Part shown: positions 26,006-56,057 of the stretch, in pieces
How positions within the stretch are numbered: the first letter of the stretch is position 1
How the letters are laid out: every line of letters begins with the position of its first letter
Assembly: GCF_003173615.1 (NCBI RefSeq)
Contig: NZ_QGNA01000004.1
Location: forward strand, 744,001 to 808,000
From: Falsiroseomonas bella
GTDB taxonomy: Bacteria > Pseudomonadota > Alphaproteobacteria > Acetobacterales > Acetobacteraceae
Length of the DNA stretch: 64,000 nucleotides
Reading direction: 5' to 3'
Program-made: the position numbers and the translations under genes
The notes under the pieces: generated by a model
What the model saw: only the letters and a program-made list of their open reading frames with translations
Database searches by the model: none
Told to the model about the DNA's origin: nothing

Positions 26006-26513
26006 CGCACGCGCCTGAACGCGCCACGGGTTGCCGAATTGCGTCAGGACCGGCCGTGTCCCCCGCGCGCATGCGTGCGGCAGCCCTGCGCTTCCTGCGC
26101 GGCCGCTTTCTGGCGGAACCCAGGGCCGCCCGTCTGCGCGCTCGACGGTCATCGGGCAACGCCCACGATCGGCCCGCAACACGCGACGCTGTCAGAGAAT
26201 ATCGCTCCACGGTTCCCACCGCTGCAGCAGTAGAAACCGGGAACACAACTCTCTCTGGGCTGTCGAAGACTGTCTCCGCGCCATCTTAGGGATGATCAGA
26301 AGCCGCGCTGGAATCGCCAGAATGCGCCTTCGATCTGCTCCCCTGGCGATGCCTGTCGGGGGAGGGCGGAATGGCTGGGCTGGCCGCGTTGCAACTGACC
26401 GTCCGCTTCGGGTTGCCCCGTGCTTGATCAAGGTCAAGGCCGGACGCGCCTTGCTTCGGGTCTAAGGTCTGCGTCTGCCCTGGCTTCTTCGCCAGCGCGG
26501 AGGGAGAACGCCC
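26006..26513. other. 508-bp intergenic region with FNR-type promoter at its 3' end
   Basis: Nothing gene-like is supported between the RTX gene stop and the 2-oxoacid dehydrogenase operon. Short frames on both strands lack family similarity. The last 100 bp hold an FNR/CRP-type box (26424-26437), a -10-like hexamer (26461-26466) and the ribosome-binding site of the downstream gene. The rest shows no repeat, RNA gene or mobile-element end that I can recognise. Confidence 0.5.
26424..26437 (+). promoter_or_regulatory. FNR/CRP-family box upstream of E1a/E1b/E2-dehydrogenase operon
   Basis: TTGATCAAGGTCAA matches the FNR/FixK/Dnr consensus TTGAT-N4-ATCAA with one mismatch. A -10-like TCTAAG begins 30.5 bp after the box centre, as expected for a class II (-41.5) activator site. 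This puts the transcript start near 26472 and leaves about 40 nt before the ATG at 26514. Confidence 0.65.
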
Positions 26514-27578
26514 ATGGTGACCACGACCGTCGCGCAGTTCTCGGTGACACTGCGGCGCCACCTGGATCGGGATGGCCGTTCCGTGGGGCCGCTGCCCGAT
26601 TGGGCGGCTCCATGCACGCTCATCCCGCTCTACCGCGCGATGGTGCGGACGCGCGCCTTCGACCAGAAGGCCGTCGCCCTGCAACGTACAGGGCGGCTCG
26701 GCACCTATGCCTCATCGTTGGGGCAGGAGGCGGTCGGCGTGGGCCTCGCCGCGGCGATGCGGGACGACGACGTGCTGGTGCCGAGCTTCCGCGAGCACGG
26801 CGCCCAGCTCTGGCGGGGCGTGACGATGCGCGAGCTGTTCCTCTACTGGGGCGGCGACGAGCGCGGCAGCGATTTCGGCGGGCCGCGCCAGGACTTCCCC
26901 GTCTCCGTCCCGGTCGGCAGCCACGCCCCGCATGCCGCAGGTGTCGCGCTGGCCTTTCGCCTGCGTGGCGAGCCACGTTGCGCCGTCTGCGTGCTGGGCG
27001 ACGGCGCGACCTCCAAGGGCGACGTCGCGGAGGCGCTGGTGTTCGCCGGCATCTGGCAGGTGCCGCTCGTGGTGGTGGTCAGCAACAACCAGTGGGCGAT
27101 CTCCGTCCCGCGCACCCGCCAGACCGCGGCGGCGACGCTGGCGCAGAAGGCGATCGCCGCGGGCATCGAGGGCGAGCAGGTCGACGGCAACGACGTGATC
27201 GCCGTGCGCGACGCCGTCGCCGAGGCGCTGGAGCGCGCGCGGGGCGGCGGCGGGCCGCGGCTGATCGAGGCGCTGACCTACCGGCTCTGCGACCACACCA
27301 CCGCCGACGATGCCAGCCGCTACCGCGACGATGCCGAGGTCTCCGCACATTGGCCGGAGGAACCGCTGCTGCGTCTGCGCGCGCATCTGCACGCCGCCGG
27401 CGCCTGGTCCAAGACGGAGGAGGAGGCGCTGCTGGCGGCATGCCGCGAGGAGGTCGAGCGTGAGGCGGCGGCCTGGCTCGCCACTCCGCCGCAGCCGGCA
27501 GCGACGATCTTCGCCCACACCTACGCCACGATGCCGGAGGAGCTGCGCCGCCAGGCGGCGGAGGCAGCGGTGGCATGA
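26514..27578 (+). CDS. 2-oxoacid (pyruvate/branched-chain type) dehydrogenase E1 alpha subunit, set 1
   Basis: A 354-residue TPP enzyme subunit; GGAGGGAG precedes the ATG. The thiamine-diphosphate motif starts at GDGATSKGD (about residue 162) and ends at the NNQ of VVVVSNNQWAIS. The SLGQEAVGVGLAAAM and FREHGAQLWRG segments are typical of the PdhA/BkdA family. With the overlapping E1 beta gene it decarboxylates a 2-oxoacid and hands the acyl group to E2. Pyruvate is likeliest in this stress context, but branched-chain oxoacids are possible because an amino-acid dehydrogenase sits in the same operon. No E3 gene is present. Confidence 0.9.
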   Translation: MVTTTVAQFSVTLRRHLDRDGRSVGPLPDWAAPCTLIPLYRAMVRTRAFDQKAVALQRTGRLGTYASSLGQEAVGVGLAAAMRDDDVLVPSFREHGAQLWRGVTMRELFLYWGGDERGSDFGGPRQDFPVSVPVGSHAPHAAGVALAFRLRGEPRCAVCVLGDGATSKGDVAEALVFAGIWQVPLVVVVSNNQWAISVPRTRQTAAATLAQKAIAAGIEGEQVDGNDVIAVRDAVAEALERARGGGGPRLIEALTYRLCDHTTADDASRYRDDAEVSAHWPEEPLLRLRAHLHAAGAWSKTEEEALLAACREEVEREAAAWLATPPQPAATIFAHTYATMPEELRRQAAEAAVA

Positions 27579-28561
27579 CCGCGGCGGAACTCACCCTGGT
27601 GCAGGCGGTCAACGCCGCTCTGGCGCGCGCGATGGCGGACGATCCCGCCGTCATCGTGCTTGGCGAGGATGTCGGCGTGGATGGCGGCGTGTTCCGCGCC
27701 ACCGAGGGCCTGCTGGCGCGCTTCGGCGATCGCCGCGTGCTTGACACGCCGCTGGCCGAGGCAGGCCTGGCCGGGCTCGCCATCGGCCTCGCCGCGCAGG
27801 GCATGCGGCCGGTGCTGGAGATCCAGTTCACCGGCTTCCTCTACGCCACGCTCGACCAGGTGCTGAACCACGCGGCGCGGCTGCGCAACCGCACGCGCGG
27901 GCGGCTCACCTGCCCGCTGGTGATCCGCGCGCCGAGCGGCGGTGGCATCCGCGCTGTCGAGCATCATTCGGAAAGTCCCGAGGCGATCTTCGCGCATGTC
28001 CCCGGCCTGCGCGTCGTCGTGCCGTCCTCCCCGGCGCAGGCCTATGGGCTGCTGCTCGCCGCCATCCGCGATCCGGACCCGGTGATCTTCCTCGAACCCA
28101 CGCGGCTCTATCGCGCGTCGCGCGAAGCGGTGGCGGACGACGGCGCGGCGCTGCCGCTCGACCGCTGCCGCATCCTGCGCGAGGGCGTGGACGCAACCCT
28201 CGTCGCCTGGGGTGGCCTGGTGCCGGAGGCGGTGGCGGCGGCGGACACGCTGGCGGCCGAGGGCATCGGCTGCGAGGTGATCGACTTGGCGACGATCAAG
28301 CCGCTCGACGAGGCGACGATCCTCGCCTCGGTCGGCCGCACCGGCCGGCTGGTCATCGCGCAGGAAGCGCCGCTGACCTGCGGCGTCGCGGCGGAGGTCG
28401 CGGCCCGGATCGCCGAGCGCGGTCTTGCCGACCTGCGCGCGCCGGTCCAGCGCGTTGCCGGCTGGGACACGGTGATGCCGCTGCCGCGGCTCGAAGAGGC
28501 CTACCTGCCCGGCGCGGCGCGGATCGCAGCGGCGGTCCGTCGCGCGATGGCCTGGTCATGA
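27575..28561 (+). CDS. 2-oxoacid dehydrogenase E1 beta subunit, set 1
   Basis: A 328-residue protein whose ATG overlaps the E1 alpha stop. It has the transketolase-like pyrimidine domain (VLGEDVGVDGGVFRATEGL, residues about 28-46) and PLAEAGLAGLAIGLAAQGMR, a central FMTGFLY-like FTGFLYATLDQVLNHAA helix, and a C-terminal transketolase fold with IDLATIKPLDEATI. These are the hallmarks of PdhB/BkdB. The heterotetramer with E1 alpha feeds acetyl or branched acyl groups to the lipoyl domain encoded next. Confidence 0.92.
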   Translation: MTAAELTLVQAVNAALARAMADDPAVIVLGEDVGVDGGVFRATEGLLARFGDRRVLDTPLAEAGLAGLAIGLAAQGMRPVLEIQFTGFLYATLDQVLNHAARLRNRTRGRLTCPLVIRAPSGGGIRAVEHHSESPEAIFAHVPGLRVVVPSSPAQAYGLLLAAIRDPDPVIFLEPTRLYRASREAVADDGAALPLDRCRILREGVDATLVAWGGLVPEAVAAADTLAAEGIGCEVIDLATIKPLDEATILASVGRTGRLVIAQEAPLTCGVAAEVAARIAERGLADLRAPVQRVAGWDTVMPLPRLEEAYLPGAARIAAAVRRAMAWS

Positions 28562-29664
28562 CCGTCTTCCGCCTGCCCGACCTGGGCGAGGGATTGCAGG
28601 CGGCGGAGATCGTCGCCTGGCATGTGGCCGTGGGCGATCATGTCGTCGCCGACCAGCCGCTCGTCTCGGTCGAGACGGATAAGGCGGTGGTTGAGGTGCC
28701 GTCGCCGCAGGCCGGCCGGATCGCGCGGCTCTGCGCCGCCGCGGGCGCCCGCATCCATGTGGGCGAAGCGCTGGTCGAGTTCGCCGATGCCGCGGCGCCC
28801 GATGCGGGTGCCGTGGTCGGCGCATTGCCCGAGGCCGCGAAGCCGCCACCCGCCCTGCCGGTAGCCTCACCTCAGCCGCGAGAGAGCGCGCCGCGTGCGA
28901 TGCCGGCCGCGCGTGCGCTGGCCGCGCGGCTCGGCGTGGATCTCGCGGGCATTGCCGGAAGCGGGGCAGGCGGAACGATCACGCTCGGCGATGTCGAGGC
29001 CGCTGCGGCACGGGCCGACGCAGGCCCGACGGGCTTCGTGCCGCTCTCCGGCGTCGGCCTCGCCATGGCGCGCAACATGGCGCGATCCCGCGACGCGGTG
29101 GCGCCGGCGACGGTCTGCGACGATGCGGATGTCGAAGCCTGGCCGCCCGACGCGGACTTCACGATGCGCCTGGCCCGCGCGGTTATCGCGGGCTGTCGCG
29201 CGGCGCCGGCGCTCAATGCCTGGTTCGACGGGGAGGCGCAGGCGCGCCGGCTGCACGCGGAGGTGGCGATCGGCATCGCCGTCGAGACCGAGGCCGGTCT
29301 GTTCGTGCCGGTGCTGCGCGAGGCCGCGCGCCGTTCCATGGCCGAGCTGCGCAGCGATTTCGAGGGGATGAAGCGCGGGCTGGCGGACCGCTCCCTGCCG
29401 GCGGAGGCGTTGCGCGGCGCCACCATCACCCTCTCCAATTTCGGGTTGCTCGGCGGGCGCTATGCCGTGCTCAGCATCCTGCCGCCGCAGGTCGCGATCC
29501 TCGGCGCGGGGCGCATCGCGCCGCGGCCGGCCGTGCATGGGGGACAACTCGCGATCCGCCGCCTGCTGCCGCTGTCCCTCACCTTCGACCATCGCGCCGT
29601 CACGGGGGCGGAAGCGGCGCGCTTCCTAGAAGCCGTCATCGCGGACCTGGCGACGGCGAGTTGA
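28558..29664 (+). CDS. 2-oxoacid dehydrogenase E2 (dihydrolipoamide acyltransferase), set 1
   Basis: A 368-residue protein. The lipoyl domain (residues 1-78) carries the lipoylation lysine K42 in VETDKAVVEVPSP. An Ala/Pro linker leads to a peripheral-subunit-binding domain (about 112-150, MPAARALAARLGVDLAGIAG). The catalytic acyltransferase domain ends with the active-site DHRAVTG (H345). It transfers the acyl group from lipoamide to CoA and forms the complex core. There is one lipoyl domain, and the E3 partner is not encoded in this window. The ATG overlaps the E1 beta stop. Confidence 0.92.
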   Translation: MTVFRLPDLGEGLQAAEIVAWHVAVGDHVVADQPLVSVETDKAVVEVPSPQAGRIARLCAAAGARIHVGEALVEFADAAAPDAGAVVGALPEAAKPPPALPVASPQPRESAPRAMPAARALAARLGVDLAGIAGSGAGGTITLGDVEAAAARADAGPTGFVPLSGVGLAMARNMARSRDAVAPATVCDDADVEAWPPDADFTMRLARAVIAGCRAAPALNAWFDGEAQARRLHAEVAIGIAVETEAGLFVPVLREAARRSMAELRSDFEGMKRGLADRSLPAEALRGATITLSNFGLLGGRYAVLSILPPQVAILGAGRIAPRPAVHGGQLAIRRLLPLSLTFDHRAVTGAEAARFLEAVIADLATAS

Positions 29665-29689
29665 CACGACGCAGGAAGGGCGCGCCGGC

Positions 29690-30796
29690 ATGACCGATCC
29701 GTTCAGCTTCGCCGACGATCTGGGGCCGGAGGCGGTGGTCCATGTCCACCACCCCGCGCTCGGCCTGCGCGCCGTGGTGGCGGTGGACAATACCGCCTGC
29801 GGTCCCGCGATCGGCGGGGTCCGCATGGCCGCCGATGCCGACGCGCAGGAGGCCTTCCGGCTCGCGCGCGCGATGACGCTGAAGAACGCCGCCGCCGGCC
29901 TGCCGCATGGCGGGGGCAAGGCGGTGATCATCGCCGATCCGTGGCAGCCAAGGGCGGCGAAGGAGGCGCTGGTGCGCGCCTTCGCGCGCGCGATCCGCTC
30001 GCTCGACGCCTACATCCCCGGTCCGGACATGGGCACCGACGAGACCTGCATGGCCTGGCTGCGCGACGAGATCGGCCGTGCCGTCGGGCTGCCGCGCGTG
30101 CTGGGCGGCATTCCGCTGGACGAGATCGGCGCGACCGGGCTTGGCCTCGCCACCGCCGTCGAGGTGGCGGCCGAGCGCATCGGGCTCACCTTGCGCGGCG
30201 CGCGGGTCGCCGTGCAGGGCTTCGGCGCGGTCGGGCGGAATGCCGCGCGCGAACTGGTCGCGCGCGGCGCCGTGCTCGTCGCGGCGAGCGACAGCACCGG
30301 CACCGTGGCCGATCCCGCGGGCCTCGACGTCGCCGCGCTGTGCCGCCTGAAGCTTGCCGGTGGCGCGCTGCGCGACCACGACCGGGGGCGGAAGGGGCCG
30401 CCCGACGATCTGCTGGCCGTGCCCTGCGACATCTGGATTCCCGCGGCGCGGCCCGATGTGGTGCGGGCGGACAATGTCGGCATGCTCGACGCGCGCCTGG
30501 TGGCGCAGGGCGCCAACATCCCCTTCACGCCGCAGGCCGAGGCGGCGCTGCAGGCGCGCGGCGTCCTCGTGCTGCCCGACTTCATCGCCAATGCCGGCGG
30601 CGTCATCTGTGCGGCGGTCGAATACGCCGGCGGCAGCGAGACGGAGGCGCTGGCCCGCATCGTCGAGCGGATCCGGCGCAACACGGCGGCGGTGCTGGAC
30701 GAGGCGGCGTCGGGTCGGACCGCGCCGCGTGCCGCCGCCGTCGCGCTGGCCGAGCGGCGCATCCGCCAGGCCATGGCGCTGCGGCGCTTCCGGTAG
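29690..30796 (+). CDS. Glu/Leu/Phe/Val dehydrogenase
   Basis: A 368-residue NAD(P)-dependent amino-acid dehydrogenase with AGGAAGG before its ATG. The catalytic pair is K65 (MTLKNAAAGLPHGGGK) and K77 in the same segment, and GPDMGTDE follows. The Rossmann motif GFGAVGRNAA begins near residue 179. Size and the short N-terminus are closer to leucine/phenylalanine dehydrogenases than to long glutamate dehydrogenases. Interconverting an amino acid and its 2-oxoacid could feed the E1-E2 complex upstream (25-bp gap, same operon) or recycle NADH under low oxygen. Confidence 0.9.
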   Translation: MTDPFSFADDLGPEAVVHVHHPALGLRAVVAVDNTACGPAIGGVRMAADADAQEAFRLARAMTLKNAAAGLPHGGGKAVIIADPWQPRAAKEALVRAFARAIRSLDAYIPGPDMGTDETCMAWLRDEIGRAVGLPRVLGGIPLDEIGATGLGLATAVEVAAERIGLTLRGARVAVQGFGAVGRNAARELVARGAVLVAASDSTGTVADPAGLDVAALCRLKLAGGALRDHDRGRKGPPDDLLAVPCDIWIPAARPDVVRADNVGMLDARLVAQGANIPFTPQAEAALQARGVLVLPDFIANAGGVICAAVEYAGGSETEALARIVERIRRNTAAVLDEAASGRTAPRAAAVALAERRIRQAMALRRFR

Positions 30797-30822: not shown

Positions 30823-31665
30823 CTAATCGAACAGCAGCGGCACGCCGCGCGCCTCGGAGAGCTTCGCCGCACCCTGCCACGCCGCACCGCGTACGAAGCG
30901 GCGATCGAGCATCAGCAGCCGCTCGCCCACGTCGTCGAGCGCGCGCAGGAGTGCCTCGACGCTGGGCTCGCCGAGCCTCCGCACGGAAAGCCGCTGCTCC
31001 GCGCCGCCGGCGGAGCGGCCCGCCTCGCCCAGCGATCCGTCGGCCGCCTCCGCATCCTGCACCAGCGCGACGAGTGTCTCGCCGGTTGCCGCGGCAAGCG
31101 ACGCCGCCGCGCGCGCCCGCTGCTCGGTGCCGGTGCCCAGCACCGCCGCGACCGGGCCGCGCCGCCGCGCCAGCCTCGAGGGCAGCAGCAGCGTGGTCGC
31201 CGGCGATTCGATCGCGGCGCGCCAGGCGGCGGCGAAGCTGCCGCAGGCCCGCGCCGAGGCCTCGCGCGGGACGGCGAGCACCACGACATCCGCGCCGCCG
31301 GAGATCCCTGCCACATAGCCTGCCGGGTCCGCGCGCACTGTGTGGAACTCGCTCGGCACCTCGAAGCGGGAGGCCTGCTGGCGGAGCAGCGCCCGCAGCC
31401 TGTCGGCAGCGCTGCGGAATTCCGCGTCGAGCTGCGCCGGGTCGAGCGCCGACCAGGCTTGCGACGGCAGCCGCAGCTCGCGCGCGAAGGGCAGCGCCGC
31501 CAGGCGCTGCACCGCCTCGTCCTCGACATAGATGCCGAGGAGGTCGCGGTGCAGCAGGTGCGCAAGCTCGGCCGCCGTCGCGATCGCCTCCTGGTCGTGG
31601 GCGATGTGGCAGAGATCGAGCAGCAGCCGCGCCCGCCCCGCCGTGCCCTCGGGTGCGGTGGTCAT
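30823..31665 (-). CDS. Universal-stress-protein-like protein, two-domain
   Basis: A 280-residue soluble protein with alternating helices and strands. Its first half resembles UspA (LLLDLCHIAHDQEAI opening, HRDLLGIYVEDEAV, then ADVVVLAVPRE). The second half repeats the pattern less clearly (GPVAAVLGTGTEQRARAA). A clean G-2x-G-9x-GS ATP loop is not evident, so nucleotide binding is doubtful. It is the last gene of the five-gene unit under the 37446 box, with its ATG overlapping the Lon-like gene stop. USP proteins commonly accompany FNR- or DosR-type hypoxia regulons. Confidence 0.7.
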   Translation of the reverse strand: MTTAPEGTAGRARLLLDLCHIAHDQEAIATAAELAHLLHRDLLGIYVEDEAVQRLAALPFARELRLPSQAWSALDPAQLDAEFRSAADRLRALLRQQASRFEVPSEFHTVRADPAGYVAGISGGADVVVLAVPREASARACGSFAAAWRAAIESPATTLLLPSRLARRRGPVAAVLGTGTEQRARAAASLAAATGETLVALVQDAEAADGSLGEAGRSAGGAEQRLSVRRLGEPSVEALLRALDDVGERLLMLDRRFVRGAAWQGAAKLSEARGVPLLFD

Positions 31666-34127
31666 GGATATGCCTCGCGGCGCTCGCCGTCTCCGCCGAG
31701 CATGGCGCGGCGCTGCTCGGCGAAGGCGCCGAGGCGACGCTCGACCAGGGCGTTGATGCCGCCTTCGGGGAAGGCGCCATCCGGCCCGCGGACCCCGGCC
31801 TCCCGCCCGAGCAGCAGCGACGTGGCCTCGTCGATGCCGCGCACGGCGTGGACGGCGAAGCGCCCGGCTTCGCAGGCGGCCACCACTTCGCGATCGAGCA
31901 TGAGGTGCTGGACGTTCGACTCCGGAACCAGCACGCCCTGCGTGCCGGTCAGGCCGCGCGCGGCGCAGAGCTCGAAGAAGCCCTCGATCTTGTCGTTGAC
32001 GCCGCCGATGGCCTGGATGTCGCCATGCTGGTTGACCGATCCGGTGATCGCCAGGTCCTGCCGCACCGGCAGCTCCGCGAGCGCGGAGAGCAGCGCGACA
32101 AGCTCGGCGGCGGAGGCGCTGTCGCCCTCCACGCCGCCATAGGACTGCTCGAACACCAGGCTGGCATGCAGCGCGATGGGGGCCTGCAGCGCATAGCGGC
32201 CGGCGATGAAGCCCGCGAGGATCAGCACGCCCTTGGAGTGCATCGGGCCGCCGAGCTCGACCTCGCGCTCGATGTCGATGATGCGTCCGCTGCCCGGCCG
32301 CACGCGCGCGGTGATGCGGCTCGGGCGCCCGAATCCCTGGCTGCCGAGCGCAACCACGCTGAGGCCGTTCACCTGGCCGATGCGGCTGCCGGATGTGTCG
32401 ATCAGGGCGATGCCGCGACGCATCGCTTCCTGGGAGAGTTCGCGCAGCCGGCTGCCGCGGTGCCGCTGGGCCGCGATGGCCTGCTCGATGTCGTCGCGCG
32501 AGACGAGATCGCGACCGGCGCGCTTCGCCAGATGCGCCCCTTCGACCACCAGGTCGCGCAGCGCCTCATGCAGCAGCGTGAGCCGGGCCGAATCCTCGGC
32601 CAGCCGCGAAGCCTGCTCGACGACGCGCAGGACGGCGCCCTGCGCCAGCGGCGGCACTTCCTCCCGGCGGGCCAGCGTGGCGACCAGCCGCGCGAGCAGC
32701 GCCTCGTTCTCTGGCGTGCGCTCGATCGCGTCGTCGAAATCGGCCAGCACCTTGAAGTGGCGCTCCAGTTCCGGATCGAAGGCGGCGAGCAGGTGATAGA
32801 GCAGCCGGTCGCCCACCAGCACCACCTTGCAGTCCAGCGGGATCGGCTCCGGCTCCAGCGAGACGGTGGTGGTGAGCCCCACGAAGCGGGCGACGTCCTC
32901 GATCACGATGCGCTCCTGCGCCAGCGCGCGCTTCAGCGCGGCCCAGCTGAACGGCTCGGTCAGCAGCGCGCGGGCGTCGATCACCAGCGTGCCGCCATTC
33001 GCGCGATGCAGCGAACCCGCCCGCACCATGCGGAAATTGGTGACCAGCGCGCCCTGCACGGGCAGGTGCTCGATGCGCCCCAGCAGGTTGCTGAGCGTCG
33101 GATGCAGCTCCTCGACGACGGGCGCGCGCTCCCCGCTTCCCTCCGGCTGGGTGACCAGTACGTTGACGTCGTAGCGATCGAAGGGCGAGCCCATCCTGAG
33201 GCCGGCCGGCAGCGGCTCGGCTTTGTCGTTCTCGCCATCGAGAAACAGCGCGAAATTCTCCAGCAGGTCGGCCCGCACCGCATCGAAATGCGCGACGACG
33301 CGCGGCAGGTCGGCGAAGGGCGCGGAGGCCTCGGAGACGGCTTGGTCGATCACCACCATCGCGGTCTCGCGCTGCAGGGCGCGGATCGCGTCGCGCCGCT
33401 CCTTCTCGATGCGCGGCACCGCGCGCAGCGTCGTCTCCAGCTCCTTCTCGATTTGCTCGACCACGCCCCGCACCGCCTGCTGGCGCTCGGCGGGCCAGGC
33501 GTTGAAATCCTCCGGCGGCACCACCTTGCCGTCCTTCAGCGGCGCCACTGCGAACCCCATGGGCGTGCGGATGATCGCGACGCCAAGCTCCGACGCCTTC
33601 TCGCCGAGGCTCTCGAAGGCGCGCTCCGCCTCCCCGTGGAACCTCGCTTCGACGGCGCTGCGGCGGCGCTGGAACTCCTCGCTCTCGAGCGTCGCGGGCA
33701 GCGCGGCGCGAAGGTCGTCGATCATCTCCGCCGCCGCGGCATCGAGCGCCGGCGCGCGGCCTGACGGAAGCGCGATCGCCATCGGCTGGTGCGGCGCGGC
33801 GAAGTTGTAGACATAGACCCAGTCGCTCGGCGGGGTCCGGTGGCTCGCGGCCTCGTCCAGCAGTGGCCGGATCGCCTCGGCGATGCGGGCGCCGGTCTGG
33901 CCGATGGCGAAGATGTTGAAGCCGCGCGCGGCGATTCCGGTGCCGAAGCGGATCGCGGCGTCGGCGCGCTCCTGTGCTTCCATCCCGCGCAGCGGCTCGA
34001 GGTCGGCGCTGGTCGCGAAGCTCAGCCGGGAAAGGTTGGCCTGCCGATAGAGCGCGCCGGCGGGCAGCCCTGGCGGCAACTGCGAGAGGGACGATCGCAC
34101 CGCCCCGTCATCCGTTCCGGACGCCAT
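31662..34127 (-). CDS. Lon-family (S16) ATP-dependent-type protease, LonB/LonC-like
   Basis: An 821-residue protein. The C-terminal Lon protease domain has the Ser-Lys dyad: S670 in EGDSASAAELV and K713 in GGVNDKIEGFF. The 43-residue spacing equals that of classical Lon. The AAA+ part is divergent: the expected Walker A region reads FAIGQTGARIAEAI without the GKT/GKS lysine, while the NGGTLVIDAR region keeps a Walker-B-like strand. There is no membrane helix or classical LAN domain, and a long coiled region spans about 170-260. It probably degrades or unfolds stress-damaged proteins, possibly without ATP hydrolysis. It is coupled to the gene on each side. Confidence 0.87.
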   Translation of the reverse strand: MASGTDDGAVRSSLSQLPPGLPAGALYRQANLSRLSFATSADLEPLRGMEAQERADAAIRFGTGIAARGFNIFAIGQTGARIAEAIRPLLDEAASHRTPPSDWVYVYNFAAPHQPMAIALPSGRAPALDAAAAEMIDDLRAALPATLESEEFQRRRSAVEARFHGEAERAFESLGEKASELGVAIIRTPMGFAVAPLKDGKVVPPEDFNAWPAERQQAVRGVVEQIEKELETTLRAVPRIEKERRDAIRALQRETAMVVIDQAVSEASAPFADLPRVVAHFDAVRADLLENFALFLDGENDKAEPLPAGLRMGSPFDRYDVNVLVTQPEGSGERAPVVEELHPTLSNLLGRIEHLPVQGALVTNFRMVRAGSLHRANGGTLVIDARALLTEPFSWAALKRALAQERIVIEDVARFVGLTTTVSLEPEPIPLDCKVVLVGDRLLYHLLAAFDPELERHFKVLADFDDAIERTPENEALLARLVATLARREEVPPLAQGAVLRVVEQASRLAEDSARLTLLHEALRDLVVEGAHLAKRAGRDLVSRDDIEQAIAAQRHRGSRLRELSQEAMRRGIALIDTSGSRIGQVNGLSVVALGSQGFGRPSRITARVRPGSGRIIDIEREVELGGPMHSKGVLILAGFIAGRYALQAPIALHASLVFEQSYGGVEGDSASAAELVALLSALAELPVRQDLAITGSVNQHGDIQAIGGVNDKIEGFFELCAARGLTGTQGVLVPESNVQHLMLDREVVAACEAGRFAVHAVRGIDEATSLLLGREAGVRGPDGAFPEGGINALVERRLGAFAEQRRAMLGGDGERREAYP

Positions 34128-34129
34128 GC

Positions 34130-46874: not shown

Positions 46875-47408
46875 TCAGCGTGCGCGCGAGGCCAGTCGGA
46901 TGCGCTCGGCGGCGATCGCGAAGCGTCCGTAGCCCTCGTGATGCAGCGTCCGCGGTGCCCGCACGCCCGGCTCGCGCCAGGCCTGCACCACCTCGAGGAC
47001 GAACATGTTGTAGCGGTCCACCCAGCGCGTGTCGGCGACGCGGCATTCCAGGTTGGCGAAGCACTCCGCCACCAGCGGTGCCGAGACATGCCTCGCCGGG
47101 CGCGGCGTGAGGCCGAAGGCCCCGAACTTGTCCTTGCCGCGGCCGGAGCAGTTGCCGATGCCGACGACCTGCCGGCCGAGATGCGCCTCCGGGATCGCGA
47201 GCACGCAGTCGCGCGCGCGGCGCAGGTTCTCGAAGCTGAGATGGCCGCCGCCGATGATGCAGCCGACCAGGGGCGGCTCGAACTCCATCATCATGTGCCA
47301 GGACATCGCCATCACATCGTGCTGGCCACGATGCGAGGTCGTCAGCAGCACGACCGGGCCCGGTTCGAGAAGCTGGTAGACACGGGAGAGGGGGAAGCTG
47401 CGCGGCAT
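46875..47408 (-). CDS. Flavin reductase-like FMN-binding protein
   Basis: A 177-residue protein from ATG 47408 (longer starts add a proline-rich stretch). The split-barrel flavin-reductase fold is indicated by VVLLTTSHRGQHDVMAMSWH, PPLVGCIIGG and NLRRARDCVLAIPEAHLG. Family members bind FMN and reduce free flavin or act as flavoprotein sensors or oxidoreductases. It lies 7 bp after the cyclic-DPG-synthetase-like gene and 39 bp before acs. Its role in this operon is unknown; redox sensing or supplying reduced flavin are possibilities. Confidence 0.85.
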   Translation of the reverse strand: MPRSFPLSRVYQLLEPGPVVLLTTSHRGQHDVMAMSWHMMMEFEPPLVGCIIGGGHLSFENLRRARDCVLAIPEAHLGRQVVGIGNCSGRGKDKFGAFGLTPRPARHVSAPLVAECFANLECRVADTRWVDRYNMFVLEVVQAWREPGVRAPRTLHHEGYGRFAIAAERIRLASRAR

Positions 47409-47415
47409 GGCGGCG

Positions 47416-48756: not shown

Positions 48757-50420
48757 AACGGCATCTCCGCCGGTTCCGCGCGCGGCCGGGGCGGCTCGGG
48801 CAGCTCCGTCATCGTCGCCTCGGTCAGCAGCAGCACGCTGGCGACCGAGACGGCGTTCTCCAGCGCGACGCGCACCACCTTCGTCGGATCGATGATGCCC
48901 GCCTCGACCAGGTCCACATACTCCTTCCGCGCCGCGTCGAAGCCGCGGTTGCCCGTGCCCTCCATCATCCGCGACACCACCACGCCGCCATCGGCGGCCG
49001 AGTTCTCCGCGATCTGCCGCGCCGGCGCCTCCAGCGCGCGCTTCAGCAGCTGCACGCCAGTCCGCTCATCGGCCTCGCAGGCCTGTTCCTCGGCCGCCAC
49101 GGCCTCCACGCAGCGCAGCAGGGCGAGGCCGCCGCCGGGAACGATACCCTCGGCCACCGCCGCCTTGGTGGCGCTGATCGCATCGTCCAGCGCCTCTTTC
49201 CGCGCCTTCATTTCGGCCTCGGCCGGCGCGCCGACCCGGATCACCGCGACGCCGCCGGCGAGCTTCGCCAGCCGCTCCTGCAGCTTCTCCTTGTCGTAGT
49301 CGCTGGTGGCCTTCTCGATCTCGTGGCGGATCTCCTTCGTGCGCGCTTCGATCGCGGCGTGCTCGCCGCCGCCGCCAATGATGGTCGTGTTCTCCTTGTC
49401 CACCACCACGCGCTTCGCGCGGCCGAGCTGCGGCAGGCGCGCTGATTCCAGCTTCAGTCCGATCTCCTCGGCGATCACCATGCCGCCGGTCAGCACCGCC
49501 ATGTCCTGCAGCATCGCCTTCCGGCGGTCGCCGAAGCCCGGCGCCTTCACCGCGCAGCTCTTCAGCCCGCCGCGAAGCTGGTTGACGATCAGCGTCGCCA
49601 GCGCCTCGGCCTCCACATCCTCGGCCACCACCAGCAGCGGCCGGCCGGCCTTCACCACCTGGTCGAGCAGCGGCAACAGGTCGTTCAGGCTGCGGATCTT
49701 CTGGTCGGCGAGCAGGATGAAGGCGTCCTCCAGCTCCGCCTCCATGCGCTCCGGGTTCGTGACGAAATAGGGCGAGAGGTAGCCGCGGTCGAACTGCATG
49801 CCCTCCACGACATCGAGCGTCGTCTCGGTGGTCTTCGACTCTTCCACCGTGATCACGCCCTCGTTGCCGACCCGCTCCATGGCATCGGCGACCAGCTCGC
49901 CGATCGCCGGGTCGTTGTGGGCGGAGATGGTGGCGACCTGCGCCTTCTCGCGGCGGGATTCCACGGGGCGGGACAGGCGTTGCAGCGCCGCCACCGCCGC
50001 GCGCGTCCCGCGATCGAGGCCGCGCTTGAGGTCCACGGCGCTGGCGCCGGCGACGACGTTGCGGATGCCGTCGGCCAGGATCGCATGGGCGAGCACGGTC
50101 GCGGTGCTGGTGCCGTCGCCCACCGCGTCGCCGGTCCGCTCGGCCGCCTGGCGCAGCATCTGCGCGCCGAGATTCTCCTCCGCATCTTTCAGCTCGAATT
50201 CCTTGGCGATGGTGACGCCGTCATTGCAGACGATGGGCGTGCCCCAGCGCTTCTGGATCAGCACGGACTTCGAGCGCGGCCCGAGCGTGACCCGGACCGC
50301 ATCGGCGAGCGCACCGGCGCCACGCAGGATCTTCTCCCGTGCGGCGGAGCGGAACAGCACCTGCTTGGCCGGCAATTGGGCCTCCGTTCGGCTTGCCTGG
50401 CCGGCGGCCATGCCAGGCAT
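48753..50420 (-). CDS. groL: Chaperonin GroEL (accessory copy)
   Basis: A 555-residue 60-kDa chaperonin. Conserved blocks are [30 protein letters not shown] (ATP site), [17 protein letters not shown], and [14 protein letters not shown]. The C-terminus ends in a proline/charge tail, without the GGM repeats of housekeeping GroEL. No groES lies beside it. A second, canonical groESL is expected elsewhere. It heads a nine-gene minus-strand unit with an FNR-type box 84 bp upstream of the first ATG; an alternative ATG is three codons in. Confidence 0.95.
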
Positions 50421-50503
50421 TCCAGACGCTATGCGAACGCCCTTCTCCGCCGCGAAGGGCCTGTGGAGCGGAGGCAGTAGAGGACAGGCCGGCGCGAAGT
50501 GGC

Positions 50504-50578: not shown

Positions 50579-52951
50579 TCAGCGCGGGCCCGGCCGCCGT
50601 TCGCAGGCGAACCCCGCCGGCTCTACGGCCTCGCTGAGACCGGGGTCGCGGATGCCGGCAAGGATCGCGCGGAAGCGGGCCTCGTCCACCTCCTCTTCCG
50701 GCAGGTATTCGTGCCCCGCCGGCCCACCGGGCACGACCGGCAGCACGGCGCAGCCGCGCACCTTCGGCTGCTCCGCGAGCAGCAGGGACCGGAACGCGTC
50801 CAGGTCGTGCAGGTCGGTGCGCAGCTTCAGCGTGTAGCTGACCTGGTTGCCGCGCTCGGCGCCGATCCAGTGCCGCTCCAGCAGGCGCAGCCAGGCGAAG
50901 TGCTCCGCCGGTGTCGCCTCCGGCGCGGTGACCAGGCGGTCGCCGATGCCGAGGCGCAGGAACAGCGGCAGCGTCGGGAAGCCCACGATGCTCATGCCGG
51001 CGAAGGTCGAGAGGCTGCGCACCGGGTATCCGCGCGCCTCGTACTCCGCCAGCAGCGGGTCGCTGTCGCCGCGCCAGCCGCCGCCGGCCTCGCGCTCGCC
51101 GCGGAACTGCACCCAGCGGAGATACTGCCGCCGTGCCGGCAGGTGCGCCCCCTCGGTCAGGCCGAAGATCTTCGCCGTGGTGCCCGCGGGCTTCACGGTC
51201 GTGACCGTCAGCGGCGCCGTGAGGCCGAGTTCCGCCGCATAGGCCGTCGCCTCCGCCTTCGCGAGGCCGGAGAGGCGCGCCACCATGCTCCAGAAGGGCG
51301 CCGCGCCCCCGCCCGCGTCGAGCAGGTCGCGGAAGCCGAGCCCGAAGCGCAGCCAGGCCCATTCGTGCAGGCCGGTGGGGCCGATGCCGATGCGGTTGGT
51401 GCGGCGGACCTCGCGCGCATAGAGCGCATCCATCATGTTCACGCGGATGAGGAAGCGTACGCCGAGGCGCACGGCATCCTCCACGCGCGCGTCCCACGCC
51501 GCCGCCGTCGCCTCGTCCGGCGCGCCGGGCGTCACCGCCGCCAGGGGCTGCGGGCAGGCAAGCAGGGGCGCGAAATCCGCGACCACGCAATAGCCGCCGG
51601 TCACATGCAGCACGACCTCGCCGCAGGGATTGGTGGTCGCCGGGAAGCGGGCGCGGGCGGCGCAGCGCGAGAGTTCGCCGAGCAGCCCGGCCGACTGCTT
51701 CGCCTGGTAGCGACGGCTGCGCAGGTCGCTGCCGTCGTCGCAGACCGGCTTGCGCCAGGCGGAGCCGGAGCGGTGGTCCTCCAGCAGGTCGCCGTTGAGG
51801 AAGCCGGGCTCGCCGGTGGCATGGGCCGAGCGCGTCGCCGCCTCGAACACGGCCAGGGCATGACGGGTCCAGGGATCGTCCAGCGTCTCGCCGGCGCGGC
51901 CGCGGCCGACGCGATGCCAGAACTCCCGGTCCACCATGAGCGAGTGGTTCGCCGTCCAGAGCCCGCCTTCCGCCGCCAGCCGCACGAAGCGCAGCGCGCC
52001 GGGGTCGCGCCAGCTCTTGGTCGCCATGCGGGCCGCGCGCCGCGCGCCGCCGCCCTGCACCTCGACCGAGAGCAGGTGGTCGGCCAGCAGCGCCTGCTCC
52101 CAGGGCTGCATGGCCTCTCCTGCCGGATCGCGCCGGCGCGCCGCCCCGATCACCTGGCGTCGCAGCCGCGCAAGGCCCCGCAGCAGCGAGAGCGGGCCCG
52201 GCGCTGGCCGGCCCTGCATGCCACGGATCGGCGTGCCGCGCGGCCGGATCGCGGACAGGTCGAGCAGCAGCGTGCGCTGGCGCTCTCGGCGGAAGGCCAT
52301 CGCCTCCAGGATCTCGACCGCCTTGGCCCAACCCTCGCGGCTGTCCTCGACCGCATGGCGGATCGCATCCGGCGGGGCGAGCGCCGGATCGCGCAGCATC
52401 TCGGCATCGAGCGCGGCGCGGATCGCCTGCTCCTCGGCGGCGGCGATGCCGAAGTCGCGCGCGAACTGCCCGAGGCCGGCCGCATCGCGCGGGTAGTCCG
52501 GGTGGGACGGGGAAAGATGCAGCAGCAGCGCGGGCGCCTCCGCCCAGTCCACCGCCACCAACTCGTCGTCGTAGCTACGGCCGACGCCGCTGCCGTTCAG
52601 CAGCAGGTAGAATTTCGCGAAGGCGGTGATCGCGGTGGCGCAGTTGGTGAACACTTCCATGTTGCGCCCGGCTTGGCACGCATCGCCGTGTTGCAGATGC
52701 CGCCCCGAGGTGAGCAGCGCCCCGGTGGCGATGGCGTTGCGCAGCCGGGCGCATTCCGTCGCCGTACCGGCGCGCTCGCCGAGAAGCGAGACGTTGCCCG
52801 CCGCGACCCGGTCCGCGACGCGGCCCCAATCCTCAAGGTCCTCCGCCCGGAACACGGTGCGGCGCGCGACAGCGAGCCCCATGCCCCCCGCCGGCTCGCG
52901 AGGCGGCACGGGCGCCTCGCCGAAGCGCGCGCCGGGTTCCGGCCCGCTCAC
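50579..52951 (-). CDS. nrdJ: Adenosylcobalamin-dependent (class II) ribonucleoside-triphosphate reductase
   Basis: A 790-residue protein. The GTG start at 52951 overlaps the ATPase stop (GTGA) and has AGGAGG just upstream. The conserved NPCGE motif (residues 441-445, C443) carries a redox/radical-site cysteine, followed by NMMDALYAREVRRTNRIGIG (split motif) and VKPAGTTAK from residue 586. The layout matches monomeric NrdJ of the Lactobacillus type. It uses B12 rather than O2 or a glycyl radical to make dNTPs, so works with or without oxygen. Third gene of the CBS-MgtA-NrdJ unit. Confidence 0.92.
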   Translation of the reverse strand: MSGPEPGARFGEAPVPPREPAGGMGLAVARRTVFRAEDLEDWGRVADRVAAGNVSLLGERAGTATECARLRNAIATGALLTSGRHLQHGDACQAGRNMEVFTNCATAITAFAKFYLLLNGSGVGRSYDDELVAVDWAEAPALLLHLSPSHPDYPRDAAGLGQFARDFGIAAAEEQAIRAALDAEMLRDPALAPPDAIRHAVEDSREGWAKAVEILEAMAFRRERQRTLLLDLSAIRPRGTPIRGMQGRPAPGPLSLLRGLARLRRQVIGAARRRDPAGEAMQPWEQALLADHLLSVEVQGGGARRAARMATKSWRDPGALRFVRLAAEGGLWTANHSLMVDREFWHRVGRGRAGETLDDPWTRHALAVFEAATRSAHATGEPGFLNGDLLEDHRSGSAWRKPVCDDGSDLRSRRYQAKQSAGLLGELSRCAARARFPATTNPCGEVVLHVTGGYCVVADFAPLLACPQPLAAVTPGAPDEATAAAWDARVEDAVRLGVRFLIRVNMMDALYAREVRRTNRIGIGPTGLHEWAWLRFGLGFRDLLDAGGGAAPFWSMVARLSGLAKAEATAYAAELGLTAPLTVTTVKPAGTTAKIFGLTEGAHLPARRQYLRWVQFRGEREAGGGWRGDSDPLLAEYEARGYPVRSLSTFAGMSIVGFPTLPLFLRLGIGDRLVTAPEATPAEHFAWLRLLERHWIGAERGNQVSYTLKLRTDLHDLDAFRSLLLAEQPKVRGCAVLPVVPGGPAGHEYLPEEEVDEARFRAILAGIRDPGLSEAVEPAGFACERRPGPR

Positions 52952-55506
52952 GCCCCGCCTCCTGCGGCGCGGAGCCGATGCGCCCAGAAGCGCCGCTTCG
53001 TCCACTCCGTCGCGGAGAGATAGGCGGCCACGATCGCCAGCAGGACCAGCAACTCCGGCGGCGAGGACGGCACGAAGCCGAAGGCCGCCGAGAGGCCGTC
53101 CAGATATGGCAGGAACAGCGCTGCCGAGCCGACCGCGATCGTGCTCATCAGCAGGAGCCGGCCCGGACGGCTGCTAGAGGCCGGGCGCCGCGTGCGGAGC
53201 ACGAGCACGACGGCCACCTCGCTCAGCAGCGAGACCAGGAACCAGCCCGTCTGGAACGCGCCGGCGCTCGCCCCGAACAACCAGAGCAGCAGGCCGAAGG
53301 TGAGCACGTCGAAGGCCGAGCTCAGCACGCCGAACACCAGCATGAAGCGCTGCACTTCCGCCATGTCCCAGCGCTGCGGGCGCTCGCCATGCTCCGGGTC
53401 CACGTCATCCGCGGCCACGGTCATCATCGGGAGGTCGGAGAGGAAGTTGTTCAGCAGGATCTGCTTCGGCAGCAGCGGCAGGAAGGGCAGCAGCGGCGCC
53501 GCGATCGCCATGCTGAGCATGTTGCCGAAATTCGCGCTCGTCGTGATGTAGATGTATTTCAGGGTGTTGGCGAAGGTGCGCCGCCCGTCCTCCACGCCTT
53601 GCCGCAGCACGTCCAGGTCCGGGGCCAGCAGGACCACGTCGGCGCTCTCCCGCGCCACCTCCACGGCCCCGTCGACGGAGATGCCGACATCGGCCGCATG
53701 CAGCGCGGGCGCGTCGTTGATGCCGTCGCCGAGATAGCCGACCGCATGGCCCGCATGCTGCAACGCGCTCACGATGCGCTGCTTCTGCTGCGGGTCGATC
53801 TCCACGAAGAGGCTCGTGCGCGGCGCGACATGCCACAGCGCCTCGTCGCGCATCGCCGCGAGCTCCGCGCCGGTGAGCATCGCGGCGGGGTCGAGGCCGA
53901 CCGCCCGCGCCAGATGGCCGGCGACATGCCGGTTGTCGCCGGTCACGACCTTCACGGCGATGCCGCGTGCGGCCAGGTCGCGGACGGCGCGCGCAGTGTC
54001 GCGCTTCGGCGGATCGAGGAAGAGCAGGAAGCCCCGGAAGACGAGGTCCGTCTCGTCGTCCCGCCCATAGCGTTCCCGCGGCGGCCCGCGGCGGTCGGCC
54101 ACGGCCAGCACGCGATGGCCGGCTTCGCCCTGGGTCCTGAACAGCTCCGCCAGGGTCGCCCGCCCCGCCGAGCCCAGCGGTTCGACGCCCGCCGCGGTCG
54201 CGATCCGCGTGCAGGCGGCAAGCACCTCGGCGAAGGCTCCCTTGACGATCACCAGGTGTTCGCCGGGCCGCTCCTCCACGACGATGGTCAGGCGCCGCCG
54301 CTCGAAGTCGTAGGGGATCTCCTCGATCTTCCTCGCGGCGCCGGTTTCCACCTTCGCCGCCTCGCCCGCCGCGACCAAGGCGGCGTCGAGCGGGTTCTCG
54401 ATCCCGGTCTCCAGCGCGGCGTTCAGCACGGCGAGGCGCAGCACCTCCGGCGAGGGCTCGCCATCCGGCCCCAGCGCGGCCTGCAGCACGATCCGGCCCT
54501 CGGTCAGGGTGCCGGTCTTGTCCGTGCACAGGACATCCATGCTGCCCAGGTCCTCGATCGCCTCCAGCCTCCGCACCAGGACGCCGCGCGCGGCCAGCCT
54601 GCGCGCCCCGGCCGAGAGCGTGACGCTCACGATGGCCGGCAGCAGTTCCGGCGAGAGGCCGACCGCCAGCGCCACGGCGAACAGCAGGGAGTCCGGCAGC
54701 GGCCGCCCCAGCGCCTGGTTCACCGCCACGACGAACAGCACGATCCCGACCATGACGCGCAGCAGCAGCCCGCCGAAGTGACGAACGCCGCGGGCGAACT
54801 CGGTCTCCGGCGGGCTCTCGCGCAGACTGGCGGCGATCCCGCCGAAGGCGGTCCGCCGCCCGGTCGCGGCCACCAGCATCCGCGCCGCGCCGCTGCGCAC
54901 CGAGCTCCCCATGAAGACGGCATTGCTGCGCGCCGTGGGCGGCGCACCGGCCGCCACGGTCCCCGGACGCTTCTCGACCGGGAAGGATTCGCCGGTCAGG
55001 CCCGCCTCGCTGACCATGAAGTCGTGCGCCTCGAGCAGCAGGCCATCCGCCGGCACGAGATTGCCGGCGGAAAGCGCGACGACATCGCCCGGCACGAGCG
55101 CTTCGACGGGCACTTGCGCCAGCCTGCCGTCGCGGAAGACCCGCGCCTGGAGCGCCAGGCGCTGGCGCAGCGCCGCCATCGCCCGCGCGGCGCGATACTC
55201 CTGCAGGAAGCCCATGCAGGCGCTGCCCGTGACGATCGTCAGGATGATGGCGGCGTCCACCCACTCGTGCAGCACAAGCGACACCATGGCGCCGAAGACG
55301 AGCATCAGCACCAGAGGGCTCTCGACCTGGCGCAGCAGGAGACGCAGCGACGTCTCCCGCGCCTCCTCGATCCGGTTGGGGCCGTGCCGGTCCAGCCGGC
55401 TGCGCGCTTCGGCGGAAGCGAGGCCGTCGGGCGACGCCGCGAGGGCGGAGAGCAGCAGATCGGGCGATTGCGCCCAGAAGGCTTCCGGCGCCCGCGTCTC
55501 GGTCAT
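52948..55506 (-). CDS. P-type ATPase, magnesium-translocating (MgtA) type
   Basis: An 852-residue membrane pump. Cation_ATPase N-domain (residues about 10-75) and paired helices precede the actuator TGES loop in GLTGESFPVEKRPG. The phosphorylated Asp is D329 in DKTGTLTEG, and GDGINDAPAL lies in the hinge. The C-terminal helices include KYIYITTSANFGNML and LLNNFLSDLPMMTVAADDVD, the type IIIB MgtA signature. It probably imports Mg2+. It starts 26 bp after the CBS gene, with a poor Shine-Dalgarno, and its end overlaps nrdJ. Ca2+ transport is a less likely alternative. Confidence 0.9.
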   Translation of the reverse strand: MTETRAPEAFWAQSPDLLLSALAASPDGLASAEARSRLDRHGPNRIEEARETSLRLLLRQVESPLVLMLVFGAMVSLVLHEWVDAAIILTIVTGSACMGFLQEYRAARAMAALRQRLALQARVFRDGRLAQVPVEALVPGDVVALSAGNLVPADGLLLEAHDFMVSEAGLTGESFPVEKRPGTVAAGAPPTARSNAVFMGSSVRSGAARMLVAATGRRTAFGGIAASLRESPPETEFARGVRHFGGLLLRVMVGIVLFVVAVNQALGRPLPDSLLFAVALAVGLSPELLPAIVSVTLSAGARRLAARGVLVRRLEAIEDLGSMDVLCTDKTGTLTEGRIVLQAALGPDGEPSPEVLRLAVLNAALETGIENPLDAALVAAGEAAKVETGAARKIEEIPYDFERRRLTIVVEERPGEHLVIVKGAFAEVLAACTRIATAAGVEPLGSAGRATLAELFRTQGEAGHRVLAVADRRGPPRERYGRDDETDLVFRGFLLFLDPPKRDTARAVRDLAARGIAVKVVTGDNRHVAGHLARAVGLDPAAMLTGAELAAMRDEALWHVAPRTSLFVEIDPQQKQRIVSALQHAGHAVGYLGDGINDAPALHAADVGISVDGAVEVARESADVVLLAPDLDVLRQGVEDGRRTFANTLKYIYITTSANFGNMLSMAIAAPLLPFLPLLPKQILLNNFLSDLPMMTVAADDVDPEHGERPQRWDMAEVQRFMLVFGVLSSAFDVLTFGLLLWLFGASAGAFQTGWFLVSLLSEVAVVLVLRTRRPASSSRPGRLLLMSTIAVGSAALFLPYLDGLSAAFGFVPSSPPELLVLLAIVAAYLSATEWTKRRFWAHRLRAAGGGA

Positions 55507-55531
55507 GTCGGGCCGCGTCGCGGCCACGCAC

Positions 55532-55954
55532 TCATCGCAGGACCTCGAAGAAGCCGCTCTCCTCGTCGAGCCGCGCATGCTCCATGGCGCGGAAGTCGTA
55601 GCGCGAGACGATGCCGACCACGTTCCCGTCGCGGCAGACCGGCAGGTGGCGGAAGCCGCAATTGTCCAGCAGGCGCAGCGCCTCCATCGCCGATTGCCCT
55701 GGCGAGAGGGTCACCGGGTCCGCCGTCATCACCTCCCGCACCTTGGTGTGGCGCGCGTCCAATCCCTCCGCGAGGCAGCGCACCGCGTCGCGGCCCGTGA
55801 AGATGCCGAGAAGGCGCCCACCCGGCTCGGTGACCAGCACGGCGCCCACCCGGCGCGCATGCATCGCGGCGCAGGCCTCCGCGACGGTCGCAGCCGGGCC
55901 CATGGAGAGGGGACGCTGATCCCGGATGACCTCGGCCATGGTCCGTTCACGCAT
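55532..55954 (-). CDS. CBS-domain protein
   Basis: A 140-residue soluble protein with AGGAGGAGG before the ATG. It is a tandem pair of CBS motifs (MGPAATVAEACAAMHARRVG, about 17-70; LSPGQSAMEALRLLDNCGF, about 80-130). Such pairs bind AMP, ATP or NAD and sense energy charge. It is first gene of the operon with the Mg-type ATPase and nrdJ, so it may gate or sense adenylate or Mg-ATP status. An FNR-type half-perfect box lies 90 bp upstream. Confidence 0.9.
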   Translation of the reverse strand: MRERTMAEVIRDQRPLSMGPAATVAEACAAMHARRVGAVLVTEPGGRLLGIFTGRDAVRCLAEGLDARHTKVREVMTADPVTLSPGQSAMEALRLLDNCGFRHLPVCRDGNVVGIVSRYDFRAMEHARLDEESGFFEVLR

Positions 55955-56043
55955 GGCACTCCTCCTCCTGACGTTGCTGCGGCACCCTGCGGACAGCGAG
56001 GCCCGCCGCCCGCCCCCCTTAGCGGCGCAGGCGCTCCGCCGCG

Positions 56044-56057
56044 CTGCTCTGGATCAA
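56044..56057 (-). promoter_or_regulatory. FNR/CRP-family box (imperfect) upstream of CBS-MgtA-NrdJ unit
   Basis: CTGCTCTGGATCAA has one perfect ATCAA half and the frequent CTGG spacer, with two mismatches in the other half. CTAAGG on the minus strand (56022-56017) lies 28.5 bp from the centre. It is the weakest of the five boxes by sequence but has the same spacing to the start codon. Confidence 0.5.

Follow-up and report, generated by a model that had tools for sequence, protein, structure and literature searches.

Boxes and promoter geometry of the island

The stretch analysed here is a 64-kb window (the whole stretch of DNA) of the Falsiroseomonas bella genome, G000:C9:744001-808000, which has a GC content of 72% and lies within a genome of 5.94 Mb. 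It carries an island of putative survival genes arranged in five units, among them genes for a hibernation promoting factor with a cold-shock domain (HPF-CSD), the chaperonin GroEL2, LonB-like and FtsH proteases and a class II ribonucleotide reductase (RNR, NrdJ), and five short boxes, at positions 26424, 37446, 39689, 50504 and 56044, were all found before these units (Table 1). An initial annotation regarded them as five matched FNR/CRP-type boxes that define one regulon across the 30-kb island. Judged by sequence, what is present is a real and conserved class II regulon of the FNR/FixK/DNR type.

Of the five boxes to which one TTG-N8-CAA plan (about TTGAYC-NN-GGTCAA) had been attributed, those at 26424, 39689 and 50504 are exact matches to TTGAY-N4-RTCAA. 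The box at 37446 is a perfect palindrome whose half-sites are TTGCG and not TTGAY, and the box at 56044 has a good distal half and a weak proximal half, with no TTG on one side. A genome-wide scan found TTGAY-N4-RTCAA at 22 places while the reversed control was found at one, and 3 of the 22 sites fall inside the window (Poisson P ~0.0019). The perfect form TTGAYCNNGRTCAA occurred at five places in the genome, two of them in the window (Poisson P ~0.0014). With up to two mismatches, the window held eight matches to TTGAYCNNGRTCAA, which leave out 37446, against a shuffle mean of 2.51, and none of 100 shuffles reached eight. A one-mismatch scan with TTGAYCNNGRTCAA (39 places against 10 for a reversed control that is biased, its reversal asking for CTAG-like letters) was discarded for target calling as too noisy.

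The distances in Table 1 run from the box centre to start codons of our own choice. The 37446 box stands between divergent genes and its -10-like hexamer points to the minus-strand HHH-BON operon and not to CapA, while the orientation of the 50504 box is such that it would serve GroEL2 and the genes behind it. To describe the flanks, 31 boxed promoters were aligned (a duplicate, L063, at the same place as L207, was dropped), 29 of them with an exact box, the exceptions being L214 (CTGAT) and L064 (TTGAG); as the rows were picked for having a box and are mutually related, only the flanks and not the box letters are informative. In 21 of the 31 promoters TA lies +28.5 to +30.5 from the centre of the box, against a mean of 1.2 and at most 4 over 46 control windows, and the full TANNNT was found in 12 (shuffle mean 0.4, maximum 4). 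The box is followed by N-G-C, with G at +8.5 in 29 of the 31 and C at +9.5 in 26. The spacing between box and -10 is, on these letters, the one expected of a class II arrangement centred at -41.5, as had been proposed; within the window the hexamer of the 26424 box lies ~3 bp further out and that of the 50504 box reads TCTACT.

Table 1. Boxes, -10-like hexamers and gene units of the island (window positions)
Feature	Coordinates	Strand	Remarks
Box TTGATCAAGGTCAA	26424..26437	+	exact; ~83 bp upstream of E1-alpha (26514)
Degenerate box TTGCGCTGGCGCAA, minus-strand reading TTGCGCCAGCGCAA	37446..37459	-	upstream of unit 2; TTGCG half-sites; identity uncertain; ~66 bp from HHH (37386), ~120 bp from CapA (37573)
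Box TTGACCGACGTCAA, minus-strand reading TTGACGTCGGTCAA	39689..39702	-	exact; ~97 bp upstream of HPF-CSD (39598)
Box TTGACCCAGGTCAA, minus-strand reading TTGACCTGGGTCAA	50504..50517	-	exact; ~90 bp upstream of GroEL2 (50420)
Degenerate box CTGCTCTGGATCAA, minus-strand reading TTGATCCAGAGCAG	56044..56057	-	~96 bp upstream of CBS (55954)
-10-like TCTAAGGT, 26424 box	26461..26468	+	TAAGGT begins +32.5 from centre
-10-like TAGCAT, 37446 box	37418..37423	-	+29.5 to +34.5 from centre
-10-like TAGGCT, 39689 box	39662..39667	-	+28.5 from centre
-10-like TCTACT, 50504 box	50476..50481	-	+29.5 from centre
-10-like TAAGGG, 56044 box	56016..56021	-	+29.5 from centre
Unit 1: E1-alpha (26514), E1-beta (27575), E2 (28558), Glu/Leu/Phe/Val dehydrogenase (29690)	26514..30796	+	Pfam
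Unit 2: HHH protein (37386), double BON (36529), aspartate 4-decarboxylase (35755), LonB-like protease (34127), USP-like (31665)	30823..37386	-	putative operon, from spacing
CapA/PGA_cap protein, divergent from unit 2	37573..38712	+	Pfam PF09587
Unit 3: HPF with C-terminal cold-shock domain (39038-39598), 87-aa protein (38751-39014)	38751..39598	-	Pfam PF02482, PF00313
Unit 4, first part: GroEL2 (50420), 446-aa protein (48756), flavin reductase (47471), AMP-binding enzyme (46835)	39745..50420	-	Pfam; putative operon, from spacing
Unit 4, second part: E1-alpha/E1-beta/E2 set (45027 to ~41898), acyl carrier protein-like (41901), FtsH (41628)	within 39745..50420	-	Pfam
Unit 5: CBS pair protein (55954), MgtA-type P-ATPase (55578), class II RNR (53005)	50579..55954	-	putative operon, from spacing
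Adjoining genes: phosphoribosyltransferase, alpha/beta hydrolase, COG2187-like protein, phosphoribosyl pyrophosphate synthetase	56121..62376		no exact box here
Further adjoining genes: nicotinate phosphoribosyltransferase (59482-61059), isochorismatase, CBS-BON	within 56121..62376		no exact box here

Conservation of the boxes in relatives

The family survey covered 249 Acetobacteraceae genomes (E <=1e-30), the F. bella genome counted, and HPF-CSD was found in 26 of them, at 27 loci. The exact box was present within 300 bp upstream of 19 of the 27 HPF-CSD loci (18 of 26 without our own) and inside the HPF coding stretch of none of the 27. Upstream of E1-alpha the exact box was found within 300 bp at 3 of 9 loci, our own included, and LonB was boxed at 5 of the 24 loci that were assigned and inspected out of 31 matches, our own not among them. 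Permuted half-sites of equal composition gave no match at any of the three families; 57 of 59 such controls were counted, YTGAT (5) and TYGAT (4) being excluded because they contain TTGAT, and the same two were omitted for E1-alpha and LonB. Conservation before orthologous genes is therefore seen for the core boxes, and ribosome hibernation is the most often boxed target among these three families counted family-wide.

Island-type GroEL2 carried an exact box at six of the seven loci examined (our own, G003, G005, G028, G049 and L066, and not L065); the count includes two loci with an hsp20-like gene between box and groEL2, and a GroEL2 fragment in G016 was left out of it. The orthologous alpha/beta hydrolase was boxed within 100 bp at five of eight distinct loci (L066, L202, L210, L217 and L219, and not L063, L200 or L201), and an exact box also stands 96 bp before the CapA orthologue of L066. 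Altogether, 46 stretches of relatives (509 kb; L201/L247 and L200/L261 overlap slightly, the overlaps being free of boxes) contained 44 exact boxes, a density that describes a non-random sample, as the stretches were fetched for holding island genes. Only 2 of the 44 boxes lie deep in open reading frame (ORF) calls, though such calls cover 87% of the bases, and one of the two (L212) is an HPF promoter, so that the boxes avoid coding sequence. The genes behind them, most of whose names were read from translations, include HPF, GroEL2, Hsp20, hydrolase, CapA, LonB, USP, nicotinate phosphoribosyltransferase, a PolX-like protein and an archease-like protein.

In genomes of this type the GC content of intergenic DNA is in general below that of coding DNA, and the boxes could on this account be functionless AT-rich palindromes gathering there by composition. 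Since 57 permuted half-sites of equal composition had no match in the same promoters, and composition leaves unexplained both the fixed -10 distance and a pair of sites conserved 94 bp apart before the candidate regulator gene described below, we regard such an artefact as extremely improbable.

The two degenerate boxes have to be weighed apart from the others. It is a serious possibility, in our estimate only a little short of even odds, that the exact boxes at 26424, 39689 and 50504 alone work while those at 37446 and 56044 are chance palindromes and units 2 and 5 are otherwise controlled. About 2.5 two-mismatch matches per window are expected by chance, the 37446 box with its TTGCG half-sites has no N-G-C extension, and the 56044 box is without a proximal half. 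At the position aligned to 56044, F. oryziterrae (L063) carries TTGATCCGCAGCAT, in which the distal half is conserved, without TA at the aligned -10. Against chance stand the TA located at exactly +29.5/+30.5 of both boxes, the distal half retained in F. oryziterrae, and the boxes before BON and LonB orthologues of some relatives; the orthologous BON gene of Caldovatus aquaticus (L067) has CTGATCCAGGTCAA 61 bp upstream. The claim that five boxes control the whole gene set is thus weakened for NrdJ, MgtA and CBS, which stand behind the degenerate 56044 site, while this site retains some support from one relative. A one-mismatch box resembling it, TTGATCCAGAGCAA, was also observed on the minus strand 1.36 kb beyond the window end (L032, G000:C9:809360).

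The half-site TTGCG is that of NnrR in Rhodobacter. The 37446 box, in which two TTGCG half-sites form a perfect palindrome and TAGCAT follows at the ideal distance, might accordingly be the site of an NnrR-like regulator and a second input linked to nitric oxide (NO). We consider this proposal quite unlikely.

Other sites in the genome and candidate regulators

The surroundings of all 22 exact sites were inspected, that is, the three window sites, one regulator site and 18 elsewhere. Seven of the 18 loci were flagged as lying in an ORF call, five of these in what we judged to be over-long 5' ends and two (C1:887648 and C12:235790) deep inside; the rest are intergenic as read. Exact sites precede genes that read, by their translations, as narK, ccoN, hemA (ALA synthase), bchE, an OmpW-like gene, hsp20, an acetoacetyl-CoA reductase and an acyl-CoA synthetase. 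FNR/FixK-type regulators are known to control several of these, and the regulon is therefore probably genome-wide, with the proposed 30-kb island as one portion of it. The boxed genes reading as hemA and bchE lie behind G000:C1:1535612 and C1:1541792, which suggests a strain that makes bacteriochlorophyll.

None of the 20 PF13545 matches in the genome, of which eight exceed the cut-off, lies inside the window, in agreement with the earlier statement that it holds no regulator gene. Two of the eight (L007 and L008) read as GntR-type by their translations. A search of the genome with PF00325 gave no match, a result which does not indicate absence as this 32-residue model missed proteins that PF13545 found. 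The best-fitting candidate reader of the boxes is encoded at C9:669542-670213, 74 kb left of the window, and has a cyclic nucleotide-binding and a Crp-like helix-turn-helix domain. Its recognition helix, PETLSR, retains E, S and R, there is no N-terminal cysteine set, and its nearest solved chains are the uncharacterised 3H3Z and 3FX3 followed by DNR (3DKW, E 1.8e-14). Divergent to this gene stands a narK-like gene, behind which lie narG-, narH- and narJ-like genes (G000:C9:669542-670400, L010 and L005; names from translations).

All 13 reader loci that are at least 62% identical, among them our own, are preceded by a pair of sites with up to two mismatches, one 52-73 bp and the other 146-167 bp before the gene and 94-95 bp apart. 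The helix reads PETLSR in 12 of these loci and PATLSR in one. Among 17 more distant reader loci, 15 have at least one such site within 450 bp, without a fixed pair spacing. The HPF box was kept in 13 of 14 HPF-bearing genomes with a DNR-like protein above 150 bits while it was kept in 5 of 12 without one (Fisher P 0.009, kinship ignored; the 150-bit line was set after a gap between 165 and 96 bits had been seen).

The four cysteines of FNR sensu stricto (4Fe-4S) are wholly missing from the DNR-like candidate and present as a partial set in L001; the full set was found in two relatives (L288 of G135 and L291 of G210). A candidate for the expected regulator homologue was found, beside narK-narGHJ-like genes, as a protein without a cysteine cluster, and the reader of this genome is most likely DNR-like rather than FNR sensu stricto.

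Either of two further proteins, L001 (helix VEHANR) or L002 (helix RETVSR), might instead be the main reader of a real FNR-group regulon. The nearest solved chains of L001 are FNR (5CVR) and FixK2 (4I2O), and the L002 helix retains E, S and R. In the L001 helix, however, N replaces S, the N-terminal cysteine set of L001 is incomplete, and L002 has its closest matches among CRP-type proteins. Neither gene has any of the 22 exact sites within 20 kb, and the conserved double site belongs to the DNR-like gene. For these reasons we hold a main role of L001 or L002 to be unlikely.

We therefore favour, with a probability of roughly 0.8, that the boxes are class II activator sites of an FNR/FixK/DNR-group Crp/Fnr regulator, with the DNR-like protein as the most likely reader, which would switch on the survival island. 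A Crp/Fnr dimer whose recognition helix reads E-x-x-S-R would occupy TTGAY-N4-RTCAA, ~41.5 bp upstream of where the transcript starts, recruit RNA polymerase and so turn on an island for surviving respiratory arrest. The island would provide ribosome hibernation (HPF-CSD), chaperonin and proteases (GroEL2, LonB and FtsH), an O2-independent deoxynucleotide supply (class II RNR), 2-oxoacid dehydrogenases, and cation and nucleotide salvage. Further targets of the DNR-like protein would be its own promoter, the divergent narK-narGHJ operon and, judged by position, ccoN, hemA, bchE and hsp20. The signal, by analogy with DNR, would be NO or nitrite sensed through haem and not O2 directly. What the analysis establishes is the sequences of the sites, their conservation, spacing and places in the genome, and the helix and conserved double site of the reader; binding, activation, signal, operon extents and coordinated induction are what we infer from these. 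The island is probably induced jointly when respiration becomes difficult.

Several observations weigh against this interpretation. The boxes at 37446 and 56044 are degenerate, and the sequence of the former itself finds no support among the relatives. Eight of the 27 HPF-CSD loci have no exact box, and in one of the 19 that do it sits 278 bp away. Boxes are conserved at only a minority of the E1-alpha and LonB loci, two of the three E1-alpha boxes (L238 and L240) have no clear -10, and the LonB gene of the window has no box within 1500 bp. Five genomes have the HPF box but no DNR-like protein, G256 has the protein and no box, and G210 has an FnrN-type protein yet no HPF box. The F. bella genome itself encodes L001 (FNR/FixK-like) and L002 (CRP-like) as other possible binders. 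Two of the outcomes that the initial annotation had named as refuting it, boxes not conserved before orthologues and boxes as frequent in coding sequence as in promoters, were not seen for the core boxes. Taken together, the first interpretation was partly supported: it recognised the right kind of regulon, claimed too much for two boxes and did not name the regulator precisely.

Among the relatives with other readers, G135 keeps the box and has an FnrN-type cysteine protein, and in G003, from the same genus as F. bella, island genes occur and hsp20-groEL2 is preceded by a box. The only regulator-profile match of G003 (E <=1e-12; L297, G003:C4:35351-35908) is located on the island contig ~25 kb away, has the helix TETVSR without an N-terminal cysteine set, and is FixK-like by the rule given in the part of PMC2908626 consulted. 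FixK-like Crp/Fnr genes were observed on the island contig of three relatives (L297, G135:C222:418-969, L217, and G268:C138:418-972, L219), and the recognition helix of L217 and L219 has ETVCR in place of ETVSR.

Gene content, known regulons and meaning

A close named relative is Falsiroseomonas oryziterrae (Acetobacteraceae), whose NrdJ (contig NZ_JAKJIB010000012.1) shares 85% identity with the NrdJ encoded in the window. The scores of the window protein against the RTPR and NrdJ models fall below their cut-offs. The nearest solved chain of HPF-CSD is 9t0z_9, a hibernation promoting factor (9T0Z), matched over nearly its full length. For the island CBS protein, Rv2626c (1Y5H) is a match at E 1.2e-6 that ranks below those to many other CBS proteins. 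The label of the USP-like protein (31665) is our own, no Pfam or NCBIfam match having been found; the 87-aa protein of unit 3 had no Pfam match and the 446-aa protein of unit 4 (48756) matched no family above the cut-off. One adjoining protein without a library match we take to be COG2187-like, while a guess of thymidine phosphorylase for 59482-61059 was rejected on a library match to nicotinate phosphoribosyltransferase. Two separate E1-alpha/E1-beta/E2 sets are present (26514-29664 and 41898-45027), and no E3 gene was found among the island proteins covered by the family scans. The island GroEL2 (48753-50420) is patchy, at ~90% identity in 2 of the 14 same-genus genomes searched (G003 and G005), and is 73% identical in G049, a genome of another family, which suggests horizontal transfer. 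The mycobacterial protein Rv0574c presumably has a CapA fold.

The comparisons that follow draw on parts of the cited papers. FNR, FixK and DNR share one DNA target, and the predicted DNR regulon comprises DNR along with nitrate reductase subunits and a UspA (PMC2908626), both of which fit a DNR-like reader here. The FixK/FnrN consensus quoted in PMC4999443, TTGANCNNGATCAANG, already includes the N-G seen after our boxes, and the alphaproteobacterial FNR/FixK/DNR regulons belong to the same target group; no HPF, GroEL, Hsp20, Lon or 2-oxoacid dehydrogenase targets were seen in the parts consulted of PMC2908626 and PMC4999443, and the latter nowhere mentions Acetobacteraceae. In Sphingopyxis granuli the FnrN/FixK box TTGAc/t-N4-g/aTCAA, mostly at ~-41.5, precedes nrdZ, uspA, ccoN, narU and an outer membrane protein gene (PMC7713065); it has the consensus found here and the position that our boxes would take. 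The targets listed there are separate operons read by FnrN and FixK (PMC7713065), whereas here many candidate targets stand in one island and the candidate reader is DNR-like.

In Burkholderia cenocepacia the lxa locus forms a low-oxygen island that includes USPs, a heat shock protein and BON and is suspected to be under an Anr/FixK-type regulator (PMC6127331, PMC9104464, PMC9733578). Its gene content, judged from these descriptions, overlaps with that of our island in part only. The likeness of lxa to DosR has already been remarked (PMC6127331). DosR families with a counterpart in our island, or boxed elsewhere in the genome, are RafH (Rv0079), the B12-dependent RNR (Rv0570), a phosphoribosyltransferase (Rv0571c), nicotinamide recycling (Rv0573c), Rv0574c, NarK and alpha-crystallin, while the regulator is the two-component DosR there and of the Crp/Fnr type here (PMC5309233). 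The resemblance, compared by sequence for the CBS protein, is one of gene content at family level and is a lead, no proof of common descent. Among the titles and abstract beginnings listed by open-literature searches on dormancy regulons and FNR, Roseomonas FNR, DosR in Proteobacteria and lxa FNR sites, none described the island, and a search linking cold-shock-domain HPF with FNR/Anr found nothing.

The FixK-like reader of G003, present in place of a DNR-like one, indicates that boxes may persist while readers differ. A DosR-like survival set might thus spread patchily through the Acetobacteraceae as a portable dormancy regulon, whose generic FNR-group boxes plug into any reader of the host, so that sensor and trigger (O2, NO or a two-component relay) are swapped. 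The readers would be DNR-like in F. bella and F. oryziterrae, FixK-like in G003 and of the four-cysteine FnrN type in G135. We put this forward tentatively, the odds in our view being rather against it.

The boxes and the island provide a sequence-defined hypothesis of how failing respiration might lead a bacterium of the Roseomonas group into a resting state. The gene set is in part like the mycobacterial dormancy regulon under another type of regulator, which bears on the question whether such sets travel between phyla and are re-wired locally. If the exchange of readers is true, relatives within one genus would constitute a natural experiment in which the trigger has changed and the response has been kept.

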